Below, piece after piece: positions 10,203-38,189 of a DNA stretch of 64,000 nt (positions within the stretch are counted from its first letter, which is position 1; each line of letters starts with the position of its first letter). A program made the position numbers and the translations under genes. The notes beneath the pieces were generated by a model. The model was not told the DNA's origin. It saw only the letters and a list, made by a program, of their open reading frames with translations, and did no database searches. The stretch covers positions 3,480,934 through 3,544,933 of the forward strand of contig NC_019703.1 of assembly GCF_000317045.1 (NCBI RefSeq), given 5' to 3'. This stretch comes from Geitlerinema sp. PCC 7407 (GTDB lineage Bacteria > Cyanobacteriota > Cyanobacteriia > PCC-7407).

Positions 10203-12914
10203 CTAGATCGGCTGCTCAGCAGGGTCTCCCAGGCGCAGCTCAGCGCGGTGTGCCCGGATCAGCTGCAAGGGGCGAGCGGCGATCGCCTCCAGCATGTAGA
10301 CCAGGTTTTCGGGCCGCAGCAGCGTACCATCGTTGCGACAGCTTCCCACGTAGCGAAAGACCGTCGTTTCGGGTGTCACCTGGAGGGCCGTCCGTACCGA
10401 CTCGCTCAGCTGCTCCGGCGCGCACCACGCCAGTTCGTACAGGCGATCGCGCAGATTTACCTGCTTGAGCTTGCCAGACTTCGTTTTTTGCTCGATTTCA
10501 ATCGAAGGGGCCGCCAAAACCCCCTCGCACCACTGCTGCCAGTGAGCCTGCGTTGGTATGTCCGCCGACGCCAACGGCTCGGATCCGTCCTCGGCTTGTA
10601 GCGCCAAGAAGTACTCTGCAAACTCCAGAGACTGAGTCGCCGCTGGGGCACCCAGTGGCACCACTTCCACACAGTGAATCGGAATATCTGCGGGCAGCTG
10701 GGCCACCAGCTGTTGCCGAAACACCTCCGGATCCATCGGCCGAGTCAGCTCAAAGTCCACCAGTTCACCGTCACTCGAGAGGCCCAGGGACAGCGCGTTG
10801 GCGACCGAAATGCGGGGGCTCGGGTGGAATCCGCCGGTAAAGGCGATGGGCAGTGACGCCCGCCGAATCGAGCGATCGAACAGGCGCATCAAATCTAGAT
10901 GGCTCACCAGCGTCATGTCACCCCGCTTGCCAAAGGTCACGCGCAGGCGCTGGGCACGCGTCTGGTCGGGGGCAAAATGTCCTTCAAACGCGGGGATCGC
11001 CGGCGGCGGCACCACCACGTTGTGCCCAAAGTCCACGCCGCACACGCCGCAGTGAGAGCAGCCCTCAAAGGAGCAGTCCGGCACCACCGCCGCCTCTAGG
11101 GCACGCTTGAGATCCTCTTGTAACCAGCTTTTCTCGATGCCGGTGTCCAGGTGGTCCCACGGCAGCGGGGCAGACAGGCGCTCATCGGCGATCGGCTCTA
11201 GGGCCGATGCGCGCTGCTGCTCCTCCATCAGGTTCCACTCGCCCTGCTCTACCTGGCGATACTTCCAGGTGAGGTCCGCTTCGGCGATCGCCTGGGTCCA
11301 AGCCCCAAAGGCCCGCTCCAGGCTCTCCCACCAAGAATCCATCCCGGCACCCAGTTCCCAAGCCCGCCGCACCACAGAGGCCAGACGGCGATCGCCCCGA
11401 CCCACAAAATCCTCCATGGCCGAAATTCGCACATCCGTGAAATTTACTTTCAGGCCGCGAATAGTGCGAAAAGCGTCTCGCAGCAGGTTTTGCTTGCGCG
11501 TAAACTCCGCCGTGGACACCGAGTGCCACTGAAAGGGCGTGTGGGGCTTGGGTGTGAAATTGGAAATGGTCAAGTTGAAGTTCAGACGCTTGCGGCCCGG
11601 ATTGAAGCACTCTCGCTGGAGCCAGCGGACCGTTTCCGCAATTCCCAACACATCTTCATCCATCTCGCCCGGCAGACCGATCATGAAGTAGAGCTTGATC
11701 TTGTTCCAGCCCTGCTCATAGGCCGTTTTCACGCCCCGCAAGAGCTCTTCATTGGTCAGCCCCTTGTTGATAATGTCCCGCATTCGCTGGGTTCCGGCCT
11801 CCGGGGCAAAGGTAATCCCCGTATTCCGCGTTCCTCCCAGGATATTGGCAATATTTTCATCAAAGCGATCGACTCGCTGGCTCGGCAAAGACAGCGAAAC
11901 GTTCTCATTTTTGAGGCGGTTCTTGACCTCCAGACCCACCGCCGGCAGCGCCAGATAGTCAGAGCAGCTTAGGGACAGCAGCGAAAACTCGTTGTAGCCC
12001 GTCGCCCGCATTCCCTTCTCGATGGCGTCTACCACCGACTCTGGGGCCACGTCCCGGGCAGGGCGAGTCAGCATCCCCGGCTGGCAGAACCGACAGCCGC
12101 GGGTACAGCCCCGCCGAATCTCCACCGTCAGGCGATCGTGGATGGTCTGGACAAACGGCACCAAGCCGATGGAGTAGGCCGGGATCGGCGTAGACACCCG
12201 CCGCAAAACCCGTGCTGGGACTCCGGGCCGGTTGGGGTGGACCGAGCCATCGGGCGCCATGTCATAGAACTGCGGCACATACACCCCCGGCACCTGGGCA
12301 AGGTCTAGCAGCAGCTCAGTCCGGCTCAGCCCTGCTACCTTGCCTTCCTCGATGACCAGCCCAATTTCGGGCAGCAGTTCCTCGCCATCCCCGAGAGCAA
12401 TAAAGTCGAAGAAATCTGCATAGGGCTCGGGGTTAGACGTGGCCGTTTGTCCCCCGGCAAAGATCAGGGGATAGCTGCCCTGATCCACATTCCAGGTATC
12501 CTCCGCCGCGCGATCGCGCCACGTCAGGGGGATCCCAGCCAGAGACAGCATCTCCAGAATATTCGTCGCTCCCAGCTCGTAGCTGAGATTGAAACCCAAA
12601 ATGTCAAAATGCGTGAGCGATCGCCGAGACTCCACCGCGAACAAAGGCGTTTGGGTCGATCGCAGACGCTCCGAAAGATCTGCCGCCGGTAGATAAGTGC
12701 GATCGCACAGCTGACGCGGCTGAGCATTGAGCACGTTGTACAAGATAATGTGCCCAAGATTCGATGCACCCAGTTCGTAGACTTCTGGATAGCTCAGCAC
12801 CCAGCGGACTGCGGCAGTCTCCCAAGATTTATGAATCGCTCCTAACTCATTTCCCAGATAGCGCGCAGGGCGCAGGATTTCAGGCGTGAGCAACTCTTCA
12901 ACGGTAACGGCCAC
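10203..12914 (-). CDS. TIGR03960-type B12-binding radical SAM protein fused to DUF2344
   Basis: This 903-residue protein has a cobalamin-binding-like N-terminal region (about 30-240), a radical SAM core with the CxxxCxxC cluster motif at C270, C274 and C277 (RRGCTRGCRFC), and a C-terminal DUF2344 domain from about residue 640 (RVTFGKRGDMTLVSHLDLMR). A cysteine-rich CSFEGCSHCGVCG segment links the halves. The substrate is not established. The two-part fusion is the usual cyanobacterial form, while in many bacteria the halves are separate genes. Genes of this family are often found beside RNase E/G, and rne lies directly downstream here on the same strand. Confidence 0.93.
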   Translation of the reverse strand: MAVTVEELLTPEILRPARYLGNELGAIHKSWETAAVRWVLSYPEVYELGASNLGHIILYNVLNAQPRQLCDRTYLPAADLSERLRSTQTPLFAVESRRSLTHFDILGFNLSYELGATNILEMLSLAGIPLTWRDRAAEDTWNVDQGSYPLIFAGGQTATSNPEPYADFFDFIALGDGEELLPEIGLVIEEGKVAGLSRTELLLDLAQVPGVYVPQFYDMAPDGSVHPNRPGVPARVLRRVSTPIPAYSIGLVPFVQTIHDRLTVEIRRGCTRGCRFCQPGMLTRPARDVAPESVVDAIEKGMRATGYNEFSLLSLSCSDYLALPAVGLEVKNRLKNENVSLSLPSQRVDRFDENIANILGGTRNTGITFAPEAGTQRMRDIINKGLTNEELLRGVKTAYEQGWNKIKLYFMIGLPGEMDEDVLGIAETVRWLQRECFNPGRKRLNFNLTISNFTPKPHTPFQWHSVSTAEFTRKQNLLRDAFRTIRGLKVNFTDVRISAMEDFVGRGDRRLASVVRRAWELGAGMDSWWESLERAFGAWTQAIAEADLTWKYRQVEQGEWNLMEEQQRASALEPIADERLSAPLPWDHLDTGIEKSWLQEDLKRALEAAVVPDCSFEGCSHCGVCGVDFGHNVVVPPPAIPAFEGHFAPDQTRAQRLRVTFGKRGDMTLVSHLDLMRLFDRSIRRASLPIAFTGGFHPSPRISVANALSLGLSSDGELVDFELTRPMDPEVFRQQLVAQLPADIPIHCVEVVPLGAPAATQSLEFAEYFLALQAEDGSEPLASADIPTQAHWQQWCEGVLAAPSIEIEQKTKSGKLKQVNLRDRLYELAWCAPEQLSESVRTALQVTPETTVFRYVGSCRNDGTLLRPENLVYMLEAIAARPLQLIRAHRAELRLGDPAEQPI

Positions 12915-13120
12915 AGCTGCACTCTCTTCCTAAACGTGATCACGGGGTCATAGATCATAGGCTATCAGGAGCAGACCCAAGATAGCCGCTCTCTTTCCTT
13001 CTCTTCCCAATTCCCCCAGATCCAGCCGCTAGGCGTTTCCCAGACCACCATCTGTCCTGATCGGAATTTTCTTCACCGACAAAATGACGAGTCAATGAGG
13101 TCTGATCGCGAGTCACTCAG

Positions 13121-13465
13121 CTACGGCAGCGTTGCTTCAAACGCAGCCACGCTCTCAAACATCGCAAAGGCGCGATCGAGCTGAGTCAGCTCAAAAATAA
13201 TGCGGATAGACGGCGAAACAGAGCACAGCGCAAAACGACGATTGAGCGTATTCGCCAAGCTCAGACTAGCCACCAAAGCCATCAAGCCAGCGCTGTCTAA
13301 CGACTCCACTTGCGCCATATCCACCAGTACAGCATCCCAATCCCCAGTCGAAACCACAGCGGTCAGCTCTTGCTTGAAAGCCTCTGCGTTAGAAGCATTG
13401 ATATGTCCCACAGGGGAGAGCAGAGCGACATCAGGACGAATTAGAACGTTTTGCATGAGTGACAT
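13121..13465 (-). CDS. STAS-domain protein (anti-sigma factor antagonist type)
   Basis: A single STAS domain of about 114 residues. SLDSAGLMALVASL is the conserved loop-helix bearing the serine that partner-switching kinases phosphorylate in SpoIIAA/RsbV-type proteins. The start is uncertain: ATG codons at 13465 and 13456 both precede the domain (MSLMQNVLIRPD), and a further upstream ATG at 13516 would add residues that do not fit the family. No kinase or phosphatase partner lies next to it, so its circuit must be encoded elsewhere. The upstream region is AT-rich with two candidate regulator sites. Confidence 0.88.
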   Translation of the reverse strand: MSLMQNVLIRPDVALLSPVGHINASNAEAFKQELTAVVSTGDWDAVLVDMAQVESLDSAGLMALVASLSLANTLNRRFALCSVSPSIRIIFELTQLDRAFAMFESVAAFEATLP

Positions 13466-28366: not shown

Positions 28367-28798
28367 GTGACATACTCCTACGCTGATACTGACGCATACA
28401 GCGTAGGCTTCTCAGTGACCCCTGCTATTGCATCGGGCGTATCCTGAGCTTTACTTTGAGTCCACGGAATGCCCTACCGCAGACTTTGAACAAGTACCAA
28501 AGTATGTTCAACCTCGGTACTGTCAAAGTTTTACGCATCCACAGAAACAGGAATTCGCTATTACTGGATGCAACCGCGTACTTTGAGTTGTCGTGGTTCA
28601 GATTTTAGGGCGGCGATTAGCTCAAACCCTTGCCCTGACTATATCACACCTACTTTGTGCCATGAAAGATTTGCTCGTTTCCTCCCCCTTCCCTTCCCGC
28701 GCCTGGGGCATAGGTCAGGGGAGCGTCGTCATCTCACTCGCATTCATCTCACGCCAAGCCAAGGATGATGGCGTGAGGCTTCTGCTGCTTTAGCTAAA
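28367..28798 (+). repeat. 432-bp repeat, copy A (non-autonomous IS200/IS605-like element)
   Basis: This segment matches 37758-38189 in inverse orientation over its whole length, with nearly identical ends and a diverged middle. The left end GTGACATACTCCTACGCTG carries a hairpin (CCTACGCTG/CAGCGTAGG). The right end has CTCACGCC/GGCGTGAG, and the copy ends TTTAGCTAAA. Hairpins near both ends without terminal inverted repeats are typical of IS200/IS605-family elements. No transposase is encoded. Short frames inside are not conserved between copies. Confidence 0.75.
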
Positions 28799-30297: not shown

Positions 30298-31161
30298 TTA
30301 ACTTTTTTTCTCCGGCGGCATCATGGGGCGAGATTCATAGGGCAGCGGAATGTACTGCACCGTCGGACGATTGTTTTGGGGCTGCGGATAGAGGTCCATC
30401 AGGGCATAGATAATTTTGGGTAAGCCGGCCGTCACTGGCAGCCCTAGCGCTGTCGCCTCCTCCACCGGGATTGGGTAGTCGTGGGTCACACGACCGGTCG
30501 TCAGGGCCTCAACAATCTCGTCGATCTTCTCTGGCGAAATCTTTTGGCGCGGCATGTCGTCCTCGAGCAGCGTTCGCACGAAGCGCTGAACTTGATTAAT
30601 CGCCTTGCGCGACAGGTCCGCCATGATTAACGTTTGATCCTCGACGGCGCTGACGGGCTTTTGCTCAATGACCCGCAGCACGCTGGCCGCCGGGAAGTTG
30701 CCGAGCTGCGGATCCACTGGTCCCAAAACCGCATTTTCATCCATGACAATCTCATCGGCGGCAAGGGCCAGCATCGTACCGCCGCTCATGGCGTAGTGAG
30801 GCACAAAGACGGTGACCTTAGCAGAATGACGCAGCAGGGCCCGGGCAATCTGCTCTGTGGCTAATACCAATCCACCCGGTGTATGCAAAATCAAGTCGAT
30901 GGGGACGTCCGGCGGGGTCAGGCGAATCGCGCGCAGCACCTGCTCTGAGTCCTCGATGCTGATAAAGCGGGAGACCGGAATACCCAGCAGGCTGATCGAT
31001 TCTTGACGATGGATCAGCAAGATTGCGCGGCTGTTGCGCTGCTGCTCAAACTCGCGAATGCACTGGACTCGACGGCGCTCTAAGGCCCGACGCTGAATTA
31101 GCGGCTGAAGAGAGCTTAGAACCAAAAAAATCCAAAAAAGGTCAAAGAAGTGGAAATTCAT
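30298..31161 (-). CDS. SDH-family Clp-fold serine proteinase, membrane-anchored
   Basis: A 287-residue protein of the serine dehydrogenase proteinase/SppA-like (Clp/crotonase fold) group. One N-terminal membrane helix (about residues 5-22) is followed by a positively charged segment. The nucleophile lies in YAMSGGTMLALAADEI (S126), and ILHTPGGLV near residue 92 forms the oxyanion region. Such proteins degrade membrane or damaged proteins in many bacteria. It lies 82 nt downstream of the ParB-like gene on the same strand, and a three-gene transcription unit is possible. A TATAGT close to its start could also be a private promoter. Confidence 0.88.
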   Translation of the reverse strand: MNFHFFDLFWIFLVLSSLQPLIQRRALERRRVQCIREFEQQRNSRAILLIHRQESISLLGIPVSRFISIEDSEQVLRAIRLTPPDVPIDLILHTPGGLVLATEQIARALLRHSAKVTVFVPHYAMSGGTMLALAADEIVMDENAVLGPVDPQLGNFPAASVLRVIEQKPVSAVEDQTLIMADLSRKAINQVQRFVRTLLEDDMPRQKISPEKIDEIVEALTTGRVTHDYPIPVEEATALGLPVTAGLPKIIYALMDLYPQPQNNRPTVQYIPLPYESRPMMPPEKKS

Positions 31162-31243: not shown

Positions 31244-31963
31244 CTATCCTCCGCAGGCATCTACGATTGCTAGCAGAGTATCTGCGCCGAGGCCATGGCC
31301 TTTGAAGCGGGCTTTCAGATCTTTGAGGGATTTGAATTCGCTTTTCTTGCGCTCGGCGATCGCGTGTTTGTGGATTTTCTCCGCTGCTTTGCCTTTCACG
31401 TTGGCCTGCTGGAGCATCAAGACAAAATCAGGGGACTGAGGATTATTGAAGACTTCTAGCGGCTTGATTGGCTTTGGCAGAGAGTTTTCAACACCCAACA
31501 TTCGCTCTACCAGCTGTTGATTTTGCTGCAAAAAGTTTTCTCGTAAAGCTGCCAGCTCTTGGGTTAAGTGAGTTTCTAGGTTGGTGATTCGGTGCTCTAG
31601 GTTGGCAGCAGGCGCTTGAGGCTGGGCGATCGCCTCTGGTGCAGCAGAACCGGCGGGCGATCGCCCCAAAAGTTCTAGCTGGCTGAGAATCTCAGACTCA
31701 TGTTTCGCCGCCAGGACAAAAGCATTGACCGTCTCTCCCTTTCGGGAGTCTTTTTGTTTTGCTTTTGCCGCCGCATAATACTCCAGATGACCTTCAAGGA
31801 TTTCAAAGCTTTCTAAGCCGGTTCGCTTAAGCACCAGGGGTTTTACTAGGCCACCGCAGGCCAAAATCAGCTCAGCAAGCTGATCAATCGTCGCTTCAGA
31901 AAAGTGCGATCGCGGCACACTTGAAGAAATATCTTTGACATCCACGAGCTCAAAACGAATCAT
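31244..31963 (-). CDS. ParB/Srx-like domain protein with coiled coil
   Basis: A 239-residue protein from ATG 31963 (MIRFELVDVKDISSSVPRSH). Residues about 20-75 match the ParB/sulfiredoxin-like N-terminal domain (FSEATIDQLAELILACGGLV, then EILEGHLEYYAAAKA), but the GHRR motif is only partly kept (EGHLEY), so CTP binding is uncertain. Residues about 120-160 form a coiled coil (LEHRITNLETHLTQELAALR). The last 35 residues form a basic helical segment. It starts four bases after the stop of the ParA fusion gene and is clearly its partner. Confidence 0.8.
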   Translation of the reverse strand: MIRFELVDVKDISSSVPRSHFSEATIDQLAELILACGGLVKPLVLKRTGLESFEILEGHLEYYAAAKAKQKDSRKGETVNAFVLAAKHESEILSQLELLGRSPAGSAAPEAIAQPQAPAANLEHRITNLETHLTQELAALRENFLQQNQQLVERMLGVENSLPKPIKPLEVFNNPQSPDFVLMLQQANVKGKAAEKIHKHAIAERKKSEFKSLKDLKARFKGHGLGADTLLAIVDACGG

Positions 31964-31967
31964 TCGC

Positions 31968-33383
31968 CTACATCCCCATTTTTTCAGCAACTTCCTTGGC
32001 CAGCAGCTGAAACTCCTCCGCTGACGGGGAGTCCGGCGCAAACTCTAGTACCGACTTTGGATCCGGAATCTGTAAATCGCCAACCACAATCATTTTGTCC
32101 ATGCAGTGAGACAGCGCAACACGGTCATAAATCACGCTTTCCATGAGCGGAAACTGGTAGCGATCTACAATAGTTTGGCGCTGCTTGGGAAAAACATATT
32201 CCAGAAAGCGAGAATTCGTTGCAATCTTCGACGGCAAAACGCCTAAAATTTGAAGCGAATCTTTGCCAATCATTTCTCGAAACTCATTGGCTTCTTGAAC
32301 AAAAGTTCGGACATTATTGAGACCTTGATTGGCAAAAGGCTTGAGGTCCGACGGAATAATCAGGTAGTCAGCCGCAATCAGCGCCACCTGGGCATAAAAG
32401 TCCCGAGAAGGCGGGGTGTCAATAATCACAATGTCATAGGTTGATTCGACTTGCTTGAGCTTTGATAGAAGTCGAGTTTTGCCGGAGGAGAGGCGATTTA
32501 GGGTGTCTTGGACATCAATGAGGGAAACGTGGGCCGGAATTACATCAATTTCGGGCGTGTTGAAAAAGTGCGATCGGCGAGCCACATCACCAATGGAATA
32601 GGCGTCTCCAGACTCTAAGACATGGCGAACATTTTTATCTTTTAAGTCGTCATCTTCATCAAACTGAAATTTAATCAATCCCGCAGCAAAGGTAGTATTT
32701 GCTTGAGAGTCGAGATCAATGAGCAAAACCTTTTTGCCAAGCTTGCGAAAAGCAGAGGCTAGGTTCACAGAAATCGTGGTTTTTCCGACGCCGCCTTTGT
32801 TGTGATAAATCGCGATAACTTTCACAGTTTCTCCTCGTTCTTCAGCCTCCAGCGTCCAGTCTTTTGACACTGGTTCAGGGCGATCGCCCCTATCAGTCGT
32901 CGCCAACGGATCAAGATCCCGCGGCCCAACCGTGCCTGCATGTAGATGCGCCAGCGTTTCGCGACCAATCAATGCGCGAATCTGATCAATGTGTGATTCA
33001 ATCTCTCTGCCTCGGCACTGAAAGACTAAGTGCAAATCTGTTTCAGTTCGAGTAAAAATTCGGATTTCTCGACCATTGGTTAAAAGACCATAGCGAGCAT
33101 TGAGACTGACCAAATATCGCTTGAGTCTTTGGGAATGCTTGTCGAGATTTTGCTGAGGGCTTTTGGCCTCGATCACGAGGCTCAGTACCCCAACAGAATC
33201 CACTACAAAAGGTAGTACCTGAGTCGCGAAAGCCAAGAAGTCGAGACGAATACTGCCAAAGGCAACTTCCTGATACCAGGTATCCGGCGTGTAGCCGAGG
33301 GTTGGCAACAGGTATTGAACAATAAATTTGCTTTCAACCTCGCTTTCGTTTCGACACTGCTCTGGATCAAAAGAGATACTCAT
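31968..33383 (-). CDS. HsdR-type nuclease domain fused to ParA-family ATPase
   Basis: A 471-residue two-part protein. Residues 1-145 resemble the N-terminal PD-(D/E)xK domain of type I restriction enzymes: E18 in VESKF, D48 in IRLDFLA and E72-A-K74 in LVIEAKSPQQN, with the YGLLTNGREIRIF strand typical of that group. Residues about 187-465 are a ParA ATPase with deviant Walker A KGGVGKTT (196-203), LIDLDSQANTT (221-231) and YDIVIIDTPP. All key residues of both halves appear intact. The combination suggests DNA partition or surveillance with a nuclease output. It lies four bases upstream of the ParB-like gene. Confidence 0.85.
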   Translation of the reverse strand: MSISFDPEQCRNESEVESKFIVQYLLPTLGYTPDTWYQEVAFGSIRLDFLAFATQVLPFVVDSVGVLSLVIEAKSPQQNLDKHSQRLKRYLVSLNARYGLLTNGREIRIFTRTETDLHLVFQCRGREIESHIDQIRALIGRETLAHLHAGTVGPRDLDPLATTDRGDRPEPVSKDWTLEAEERGETVKVIAIYHNKGGVGKTTISVNLASAFRKLGKKVLLIDLDSQANTTFAAGLIKFQFDEDDDLKDKNVRHVLESGDAYSIGDVARRSHFFNTPEIDVIPAHVSLIDVQDTLNRLSSGKTRLLSKLKQVESTYDIVIIDTPPSRDFYAQVALIAADYLIIPSDLKPFANQGLNNVRTFVQEANEFREMIGKDSLQILGVLPSKIATNSRFLEYVFPKQRQTIVDRYQFPLMESVIYDRVALSHCMDKMIVVGDLQIPDPKSVLEFAPDSPSAEEFQLLAKEVAEKMGM

Positions 33384-37757: not shown

Positions 37758-38189
37758 TTTAGCTAAAGCAGCAGAAGCCTCACGCCATCATCTTTGATTT
37801 GGCGTTGAGATGAATGCGAGCGAGCGAACGACACTCCTCTGACCTATGCCGCAGGCGCGAGGAGGGGAGATGGAGGAAACGAGCAAATCTCTCATGATAC
37901 AAAACGGGTGAGATAATCAGGCTAAGGGTTTGAGCTAATCGCCGCCCTGAAACTTGAACCTTGACAACCTGGAATAGGGGGTTCTGCCTAGAAACAGACG
38001 ATTCGTCGTCGCATCTGTGGGCAGGTAAAATTCCAGCAGTACAAAGGAGAGAACAACACTCTTTGTATTGTTCCGGTGCGGTGGGGCATCCCGTATCGTC
38101 AATAAAGCTCAGGAAACGCCCGATGGGATACCAGGGGTCACTGAGAAGCCTACGCTGCATACGTCAGTATCAGCGTAGGAGTATGTCAC
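37758..38189 (-). repeat. 432-bp repeat, copy B (inverse of copy A)
   Basis: Read on the minus strand, this copy begins GTGACATACTCCTACGCTG and ends TTTAGCTAAA, exactly like copy A, and has the same total length of 432 bases. The end hairpins are kept: the left has CCTACGCTG/CAGCGTAGG, and the right stem has one bulged base. The middle is diverged. It lies between ileS and ycf66. No transposase frame is present. Confidence 0.75.

Follow-up and report, generated by a model that had tools for sequence, protein, structure and literature searches.

The genome of the cyanobacterium Geitlerinema sp. PCC 7407 is a single 4.68-Mb contig (NC_019703.1) in whose sequence HIP1 GCGATCGC repeats are present. 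This work concerns a window of 64,000 nucleotides from that contig (positions 3,480,934 to 3,544,933) and, within it, a pair of adjacent genes on the minus strand at 31244-33383. The first gene (31968..33383, 471 amino acids, P0001) encodes a PD-(D/E)xK-type nuclease domain fused to a ParA ATPase, and the second (31244..31963, 239 amino acids, P0002) encodes a ParB-like partner whose ATG lies four bases past the TAG stop of the fusion gene. Both were called as open reading frames (ORFs). The fusion gene has full-length homologues in other cyanobacterial families at 49-65% identity, and at the loci of its relatives the spacing between the two genes is usually between -4 (an overlap) and +20 nt. 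Purifying selection maintains both of them. An earlier note, made from the letters of this DNA alone, had described just such a fusion and partner at these positions, four bases apart, and the gene calls agree with it.

The nuclease domain

The nuclease domain (residues 1-140, 32964..33383, minus strand) matches Pfam HSDR_N over residues 45-115 of the fusion protein, scoring 25.8 bits where the cut-off is 25.1. HSDR_N_2 matches it as well, in 15 of 16 diverse members when each is scanned singly. The conserved E...D...ExK active site of the PD-(D/E)xK superfamily is present. E17, D48, E72 and K74 are retained in at least 38 of the 39 full-length proteins, the single exception being a helicase fusion that we return to below. 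In an alignment that reaches down to 23% identity and takes in three subtypes, plasmid-borne relatives included, E13, D48, E72 and K74 are invariant. The earlier note placed a PD-(D/E)xK domain at this N-terminus, which these matches bear out, and it proposed E18, D48, E72 and K74 as the catalytic residues. The last three stand; its E18 is actually E17, and E13 is the better candidate for the motif-I residue because it is invariant across all three subtypes while E17 is found in only 38 of 39 proteins. Free variation of the acidic residues among homologues, which the note would have counted against a nuclease, was looked for and not seen. Over eight close pairs the ratio of nonsynonymous to synonymous change (omega) is 0.10-0.26 for the nuclease, similar to the 0.02-0.24 of the ParA domain.

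Structure prediction says less. The AlphaFold2 (AF2) model of the nuclease domain, built from 12 close sequences, has a mean predicted local distance difference test score (pLDDT) of 64, with residues 49-74 below 50. Its best Foldseek matches include a putative restriction endonuclease and HsdR, and all have E > 0.001. The nuclease profile run against PDB sequences gave spurious matches only, such as UCH-L5. AF2 therefore supports the predicted nuclease fold weakly, and it is the sequence profiles and the conserved motifs, rather than a structure, that carry the assignment. One could argue from the poor model of the core, and from the fact that catalysis is predicted from sequence, that the fold is a non-catalytic DNA-binding module and the whole protein only a DNA-tethered ParA. 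Non-catalytic versions of the PD-(D/E)xK fold normally lose their acidic and lysine residues, however, and the invariance of E13, D48, E72 and K74 across subtypes makes this idea very improbable in our opinion.

The ATPase and its partner

The ParA domain (residues 185-471, 31968..32831, minus strand) matches AAA_31 at 172.8 bits. It has a deviant Walker A motif, KGGVGKTT, at 196-203, intact as the earlier note had it, a Walker A' motif, DLDSQAN, at 223-229, and a Walker B motif, DIVIIDTPPS, at 317-326. The residues of all these motifs are invariant among homologues. The closest solved relatives of the ATPase are Soj/ParA proteins, with McdA among them.

The partner begins with a domain of ParB_N/sulfiredoxin-like fold (residues 1-95, 31679..31963, minus strand), which we will call the N-domain. 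Pfam ParB_N scores it at 25.6 bits, slightly below the cut-off. As modelled by AF2 (pLDDT 74.5), the whole partner consists of this N-domain, a low-confidence stretch, a coiled coil and C-terminal helices, and Foldseek matches the model to the N-domains of Noc and ParB with probability 1.0; ParB-CDP and sulfiredoxin align too. The coiled coil (119-161) and a C-terminal helical domain that is helix-hairpin-helix (HhH)-like (about 168-237) together occupy 31244..31609 on the minus strand. The C-terminal domain has weak Pfam matches to DUF655 and HHH_6 and a weak profile match to AF1531 (2i5h, E 0.011). Where ParB has the motif GERRxRAA, the partner has EGHLEYYAA, and its homologues follow an [LFR]EYYA-type pattern; the partner lacks the GERR/GHRR CTP-binding motif of ParB. 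A ParB-like protein with a coiled coil and no GHRR is what had been read from the sequence originally, and that description holds. A KorB-type central helix-turn-helix (HTH) gave no Pfam match on the partner at E<=1.

Distribution and inheritance

We took a census of 386 cyanobacterial genomes, counting relatives of the ATPase at E<=1e-40. The fusion ATPase has relatives in 60 of them, about 16%. The partner N-domain was found in 52 genomes; it adjoins this ATPase in all 52 and never occurs without it. Some members of genera g6 and g13 have the module and other members of the same genera lack it. The ParA tree rejects the monophyly of families f6 (approximately unbiased test, p 0.002), f10 (p 0.0004) and f26 (p 0.028), which implies either transfer between families or hidden paralogy. 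Frameshifts or stops break the copies at loci L047/L065, L048 and L066, the partner at L055 and the second copy in L070. We considered whether such split genes might be working two-protein versions, a nuclease and a separate ATPase, and rejected this; at L047/L065 and L066 the frame shifts within the Walker A region or just past it. All copies of type I, the subfamily to which the pair in the window belongs, lie on chromosome-sized contigs where the genome is near-complete. Overall, this is a chromosomal module with a patchy distribution, passed on horizontally and often broken. The earlier note had called for a survey of whether the two genes always occur together, on plasmids or in defence islands. 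The partner does always come with the ATPase, and the type I pair was found neither on the plasmids of PLSDB nor, judging by the neighbour proteins sampled, in defence islands.

Two loci, L062 and L086, have nearly identical nucleases (nonsynonymous divergence, dN, 0.02), while dN is 0.11 for ParA and 0.34 for the partner N-domain. This pattern suggests mosaic recombination within the module.

Several genomes of the Nostocales keep the locus in the same gene order, in the manner of a resident gene. This synteny, taken with the purifying selection, is what one would expect of a housekeeping nuclease for DNA repair or chromosome processing that ParA tethers to the nucleoid. A housekeeping gene is hard to square with a module that is patchy, transferred and often broken, and whose nuclease is dispensable in several lineages. 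The tally of neighbouring genes contains no recurrent repair gene except two photolyase genes. We give the housekeeping explanation little credence.

Many Nostocales loci also have, upstream of the fusion gene, an ordinary ParA-like gene of ~294 amino acids that is divergently transcribed and stands off by a few hundred to ~1,800 bases (L043:4512-5396, L051:5302-6186, L056:6649-7533, L068:9628-10512 and others).

Is it a plasmid partition cassette?

The earlier note left two options, a plasmid-type partition module or a defence system in which a ParA-ParB sensor controls cleavage. The first of these fails on several grounds. Type I is chromosomal, and none of the plasmids in PLSDB carries a type I pair. 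The partner has neither an HTH nor the GERR motif. The host genome has no canonical ParB above the TIGR00180 cut-off, and a search with the canonical parS pattern found only two loci with two mismatches each, fewer than the reversed-pattern control, so there is no cluster of canonical parS sites; parS of a non-canonical kind may still exist. Plasmids that carry the related type III fusion already have ParM and ParA of their own. The module is not a plasmid partition cassette.

The pair was also said to sit in a repeat-flanked region, and the inverted repeats do exist, at 28367-28798 and 37758-38189. They are copies of a dispersed element of ~430 bp with 42 matches in the genome, about 19 of them near-full-length and many others fragments of ~110 bp, and they look like a family of non-autonomous elements. 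An integrated plasmid or island bounded by these repeats is ruled out, since the repeats are dispersed and also enclose ileS; they do not mark an island.

The genes upstream of the pair encode PhoD, a Na/Ca exchanger, a ClpC-type AAA protein, pantothenate kinase, a desaturase and beta-lactamase-like proteins. No further operon partner recurs across families. Immediately downstream of the pair in the window is an SDH-type ClpP-like serine protease gene (30298-31161, minus strand). The protease gene is also found in 8 of 29 relatives searched, and in the module carriers G011 and G284 it lies far from the module. Rfam matched no RNA element near the locus, and promoter and terminator predictions there were not above those for shuffled sequence.

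Loss of the nuclease and the sister subfamilies

The nuclease is missing and the ATPase kept at L067, L072, L073, L075, L082, L085 and L088, and all of these except L085 also keep the partner. On the ParA tree the nuclease-less members are scattered among the fused ones, with six changes, at least four of which are forced by supported branches. The simplest reading of this tree would be repeated losses of the nuclease from a module whose ATPase persisted, in nearly every case together with the partner. The N-terminus also changes in another way. In genome G119 the HsdR-like domain is replaced by a region with a weak PD-(D/E)xK-type match and a superfamily 1 (SF1) helicase; at L074:7986-11186 (minus strand) one frame of 1,067 codons holds the weak nuclease match, the helicase and ParA. 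The helicase fusion may be decaying because that frame is interrupted by one stop codon. Shortly upstream of it begins a type II copy (11944-13364), which is divided over two ORFs.

Type II is a sister subfamily made up of a fusion and a partner with ParB_N, a coiled coil and Rho_N. It is present in three of the ten nuclease-less type I genomes and also in G119, versus none of the 45 with a nuclease-bearing type I (hypergeometric p 9e-4 for a comparison chosen post hoc). Partners resembling those of type II, with ParB_N, a coiled coil and Rho_N, lie near type I pairs at L069:2843-3946 and L087:10908-11996 with no fusion ATPase of their own close by.

These losses bear on the idea that the pair is a positioning system, one that uses the nucleoid to position or partition the chromosome or some other cargo, with the nuclease as an accessory that might, for example, resolve entangled DNA. 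The ATPase is complete, its nearest relatives are Soj/ParA and McdA, the pair persists where the nuclease has repeatedly been lost, and no canonical ParB scores above the cut-off in the host. A positioning system of this kind would nevertheless have to be at work in so small a share of cyanobacterial genomes, and to come and go within genera. It would have to do so with no parS cluster in the host and through a partner that lacks both HTH and GERR. Type III plasmids already have ParM and ordinary ParA for the purpose, and positioning leaves unexplained both the invariant nuclease residues and the phage copies of the partner domain described below. We consider positioning possible and on balance rather unlikely.

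Type III is a second sister subfamily, whose partner has ParB_N and Rho_N. It was found on two mobilizable plasmids of Nostoc sp. UHCC 0870 and on one IMG/VR contig. ParM and at least one ordinary ParA are encoded on those plasmids too, which gives them partition genes besides the fusion. These plasmids, together with the horizontal transfer among families, would fit a domesticated system of plasmid maintenance or competition between replicons, in which the ATPase and its partner would detect related replicons and the nuclease would eliminate the competitors. We think this improbable, given that type I is chromosomal in every near-complete genome and absent from PLSDB, and that the neighbours sampled show no recurrent integrase or relaxase.

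Copies of the partner domain in phages

Searching IMG/VR with the partner recovered proteins of ~100 amino acids that consist of the N-domain alone (L132:8001-8303 is an example). They come from three phage contigs unrelated to one another, of which the first bears a tail gene, the second a terminase gene and the third genes for head morphogenesis and endolysin. When one of these orphan N-domains was run against the 386 genomes, the module partner was what it matched in 52 of the 53 genomes with a match (best E 5e-29); the other match was at 1.4e-5. A partner profile built from cyanobacteria only has its best match among PDB sequences in a phage tail protein, 9k3a (residues 1335-1405, E 1.4e-8), with Noc behind at 7.8e-5. 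The protein in 9k3a is ORF27 of Anabaena phage A-4L, and a fold comparison against viral proteins also puts a tail protein of A-4L at the top. ORF27 (L230:3002-8155) is a virion tail protein of 1,717 amino acids with a ParB_N-type domain in its C-terminal part that Pfam misses. Sequenced phage genomes gave no tblastn match to the N-domain or to type III; A-4L surfaced through profiles and fold comparison only. Viral contigs had no type I fusion, although ordinary ParA and one type III were present. An anti-phage role in cutting DNA is possible because cyanophages carry pieces of the partner, and we infer that the phage N-domains compete with the host partner. ParB/sulfiredoxin (Srx) domains are already known from polyvalent proteins injected by phages, where they are not tied to ParA (PMC5512222).

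Known systems compared

The module shares with ParABS (Soj/Spo0J, Noc) a deviant Walker A ParA encoded just before a protein of ParB_N fold. It differs in having an N-terminal nuclease and a partner without the HTH/KorB domain or GERR, its host has no parS cluster, and it is not a segregation system found across the phylum. Its nuclease belongs to the same Pfam family (HSDR_N) as that of the type I restriction subunit HsdR, but ParA stands in the motor position rather than a superfamily 2 (SF2) helicase, and neither HsdM nor HsdS turned up in the neighbour tallies or in those ORFs of the window that were examined. McdAB is likewise a two-gene cyanobacterial system of ParA type, and McdA is one of the solved relatives of the ATPase. 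McdA has no nuclease, however, and McdB is not a ParB_N protein as the partner here is. The sampled neighbours of the pair include no carboxysome genes; McdB itself was not searched for. The DdrB-like ParB domains of phage polyvalent proteins have the ParB/Srx fold and are packaged in the virion or injected with it (PMC5512222). Those domains are predicted to be DNases and have no ParA partner, while the host partner described here lacks the arginines of the GERR motif and is always paired with ParA. We found no description of the pair in the PMC literature searched, which does not cover subscription papers. The parts are known, and the combination of a nuclease-ParA fusion with a ParB-like partner appears undescribed within the libraries searched.

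What the module may do

The strict pairing, the conservation of the catalytic residues, the patchiness and transfer, the breakage, the modular N-terminus and the N-domains in phages lead us to an anti-mobile-element reading. We propose that the module directs a nuclease, under the control of ParA, against invading DNA and that phages encode mimics of the partner, and we would call this close to an even chance, if somewhat short of one. Of the two options in the earlier note, the defence option is the better fit for the same reasons, though not in every respect, as set out below. The more specific claim is that this is a new anti-phage or anti-plasmid class, in which ParA delivers its fused nuclease to invading DNA under the control of a ParB-like partner blind to parS, and against which cyanophages deploy mimics of that partner, either free-standing or built into the virion. 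We advance that claim more tentatively.

A mechanism can be suggested. The ATP-bound ParA dimer would coat DNA, as other ParA proteins do, with its two nuclease domains held inactive or dispersed. The partner, which lacks the usual HTH for parS, would use its N- and C-domains to mark invading DNA or a cue of infection. On contacting ParA it would trigger ATP hydrolysis, and the nuclease would then be concentrated or released on the marked DNA. Phages might respond with stand-alone copies of the partner N-domain that compete for ParA or for the cue.

Several observations weigh against a nuclease aimed at invading DNA. The neighbours of the pair are mostly metabolic, signalling and housekeeping genes, and the 128 neighbour proteins include only scattered single PADLOC matches, which is not what a defence island looks like. 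The pair is unknown to PADLOC-DB 2.0.0, which has no system model over both genes (there are partial matches to PDC-M28B for the ATPase and to mad2 for the nuclease, and none for the partner), and NCBIfam has no model covering it. The resident-like synteny in the Nostocales counts here too. The lineages without a nuclease are a further difficulty; repeated loss with the ATPase retained implies that the ATPase-partner pair has a role without a nuclease of its own. The phage N-domains may serve some other purpose, and few are known.

The argument between these explanations can be put to a direct test. The module is small, relatives of Nostoc and Anabaena that can be cultured are available, and a virion protein of A-4L carries the partner domain. 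If a ParA-controlled nuclease against invading DNA is the right reading, then ParA, the textbook engine of positioning, would have been repurposed for the destruction of DNA.
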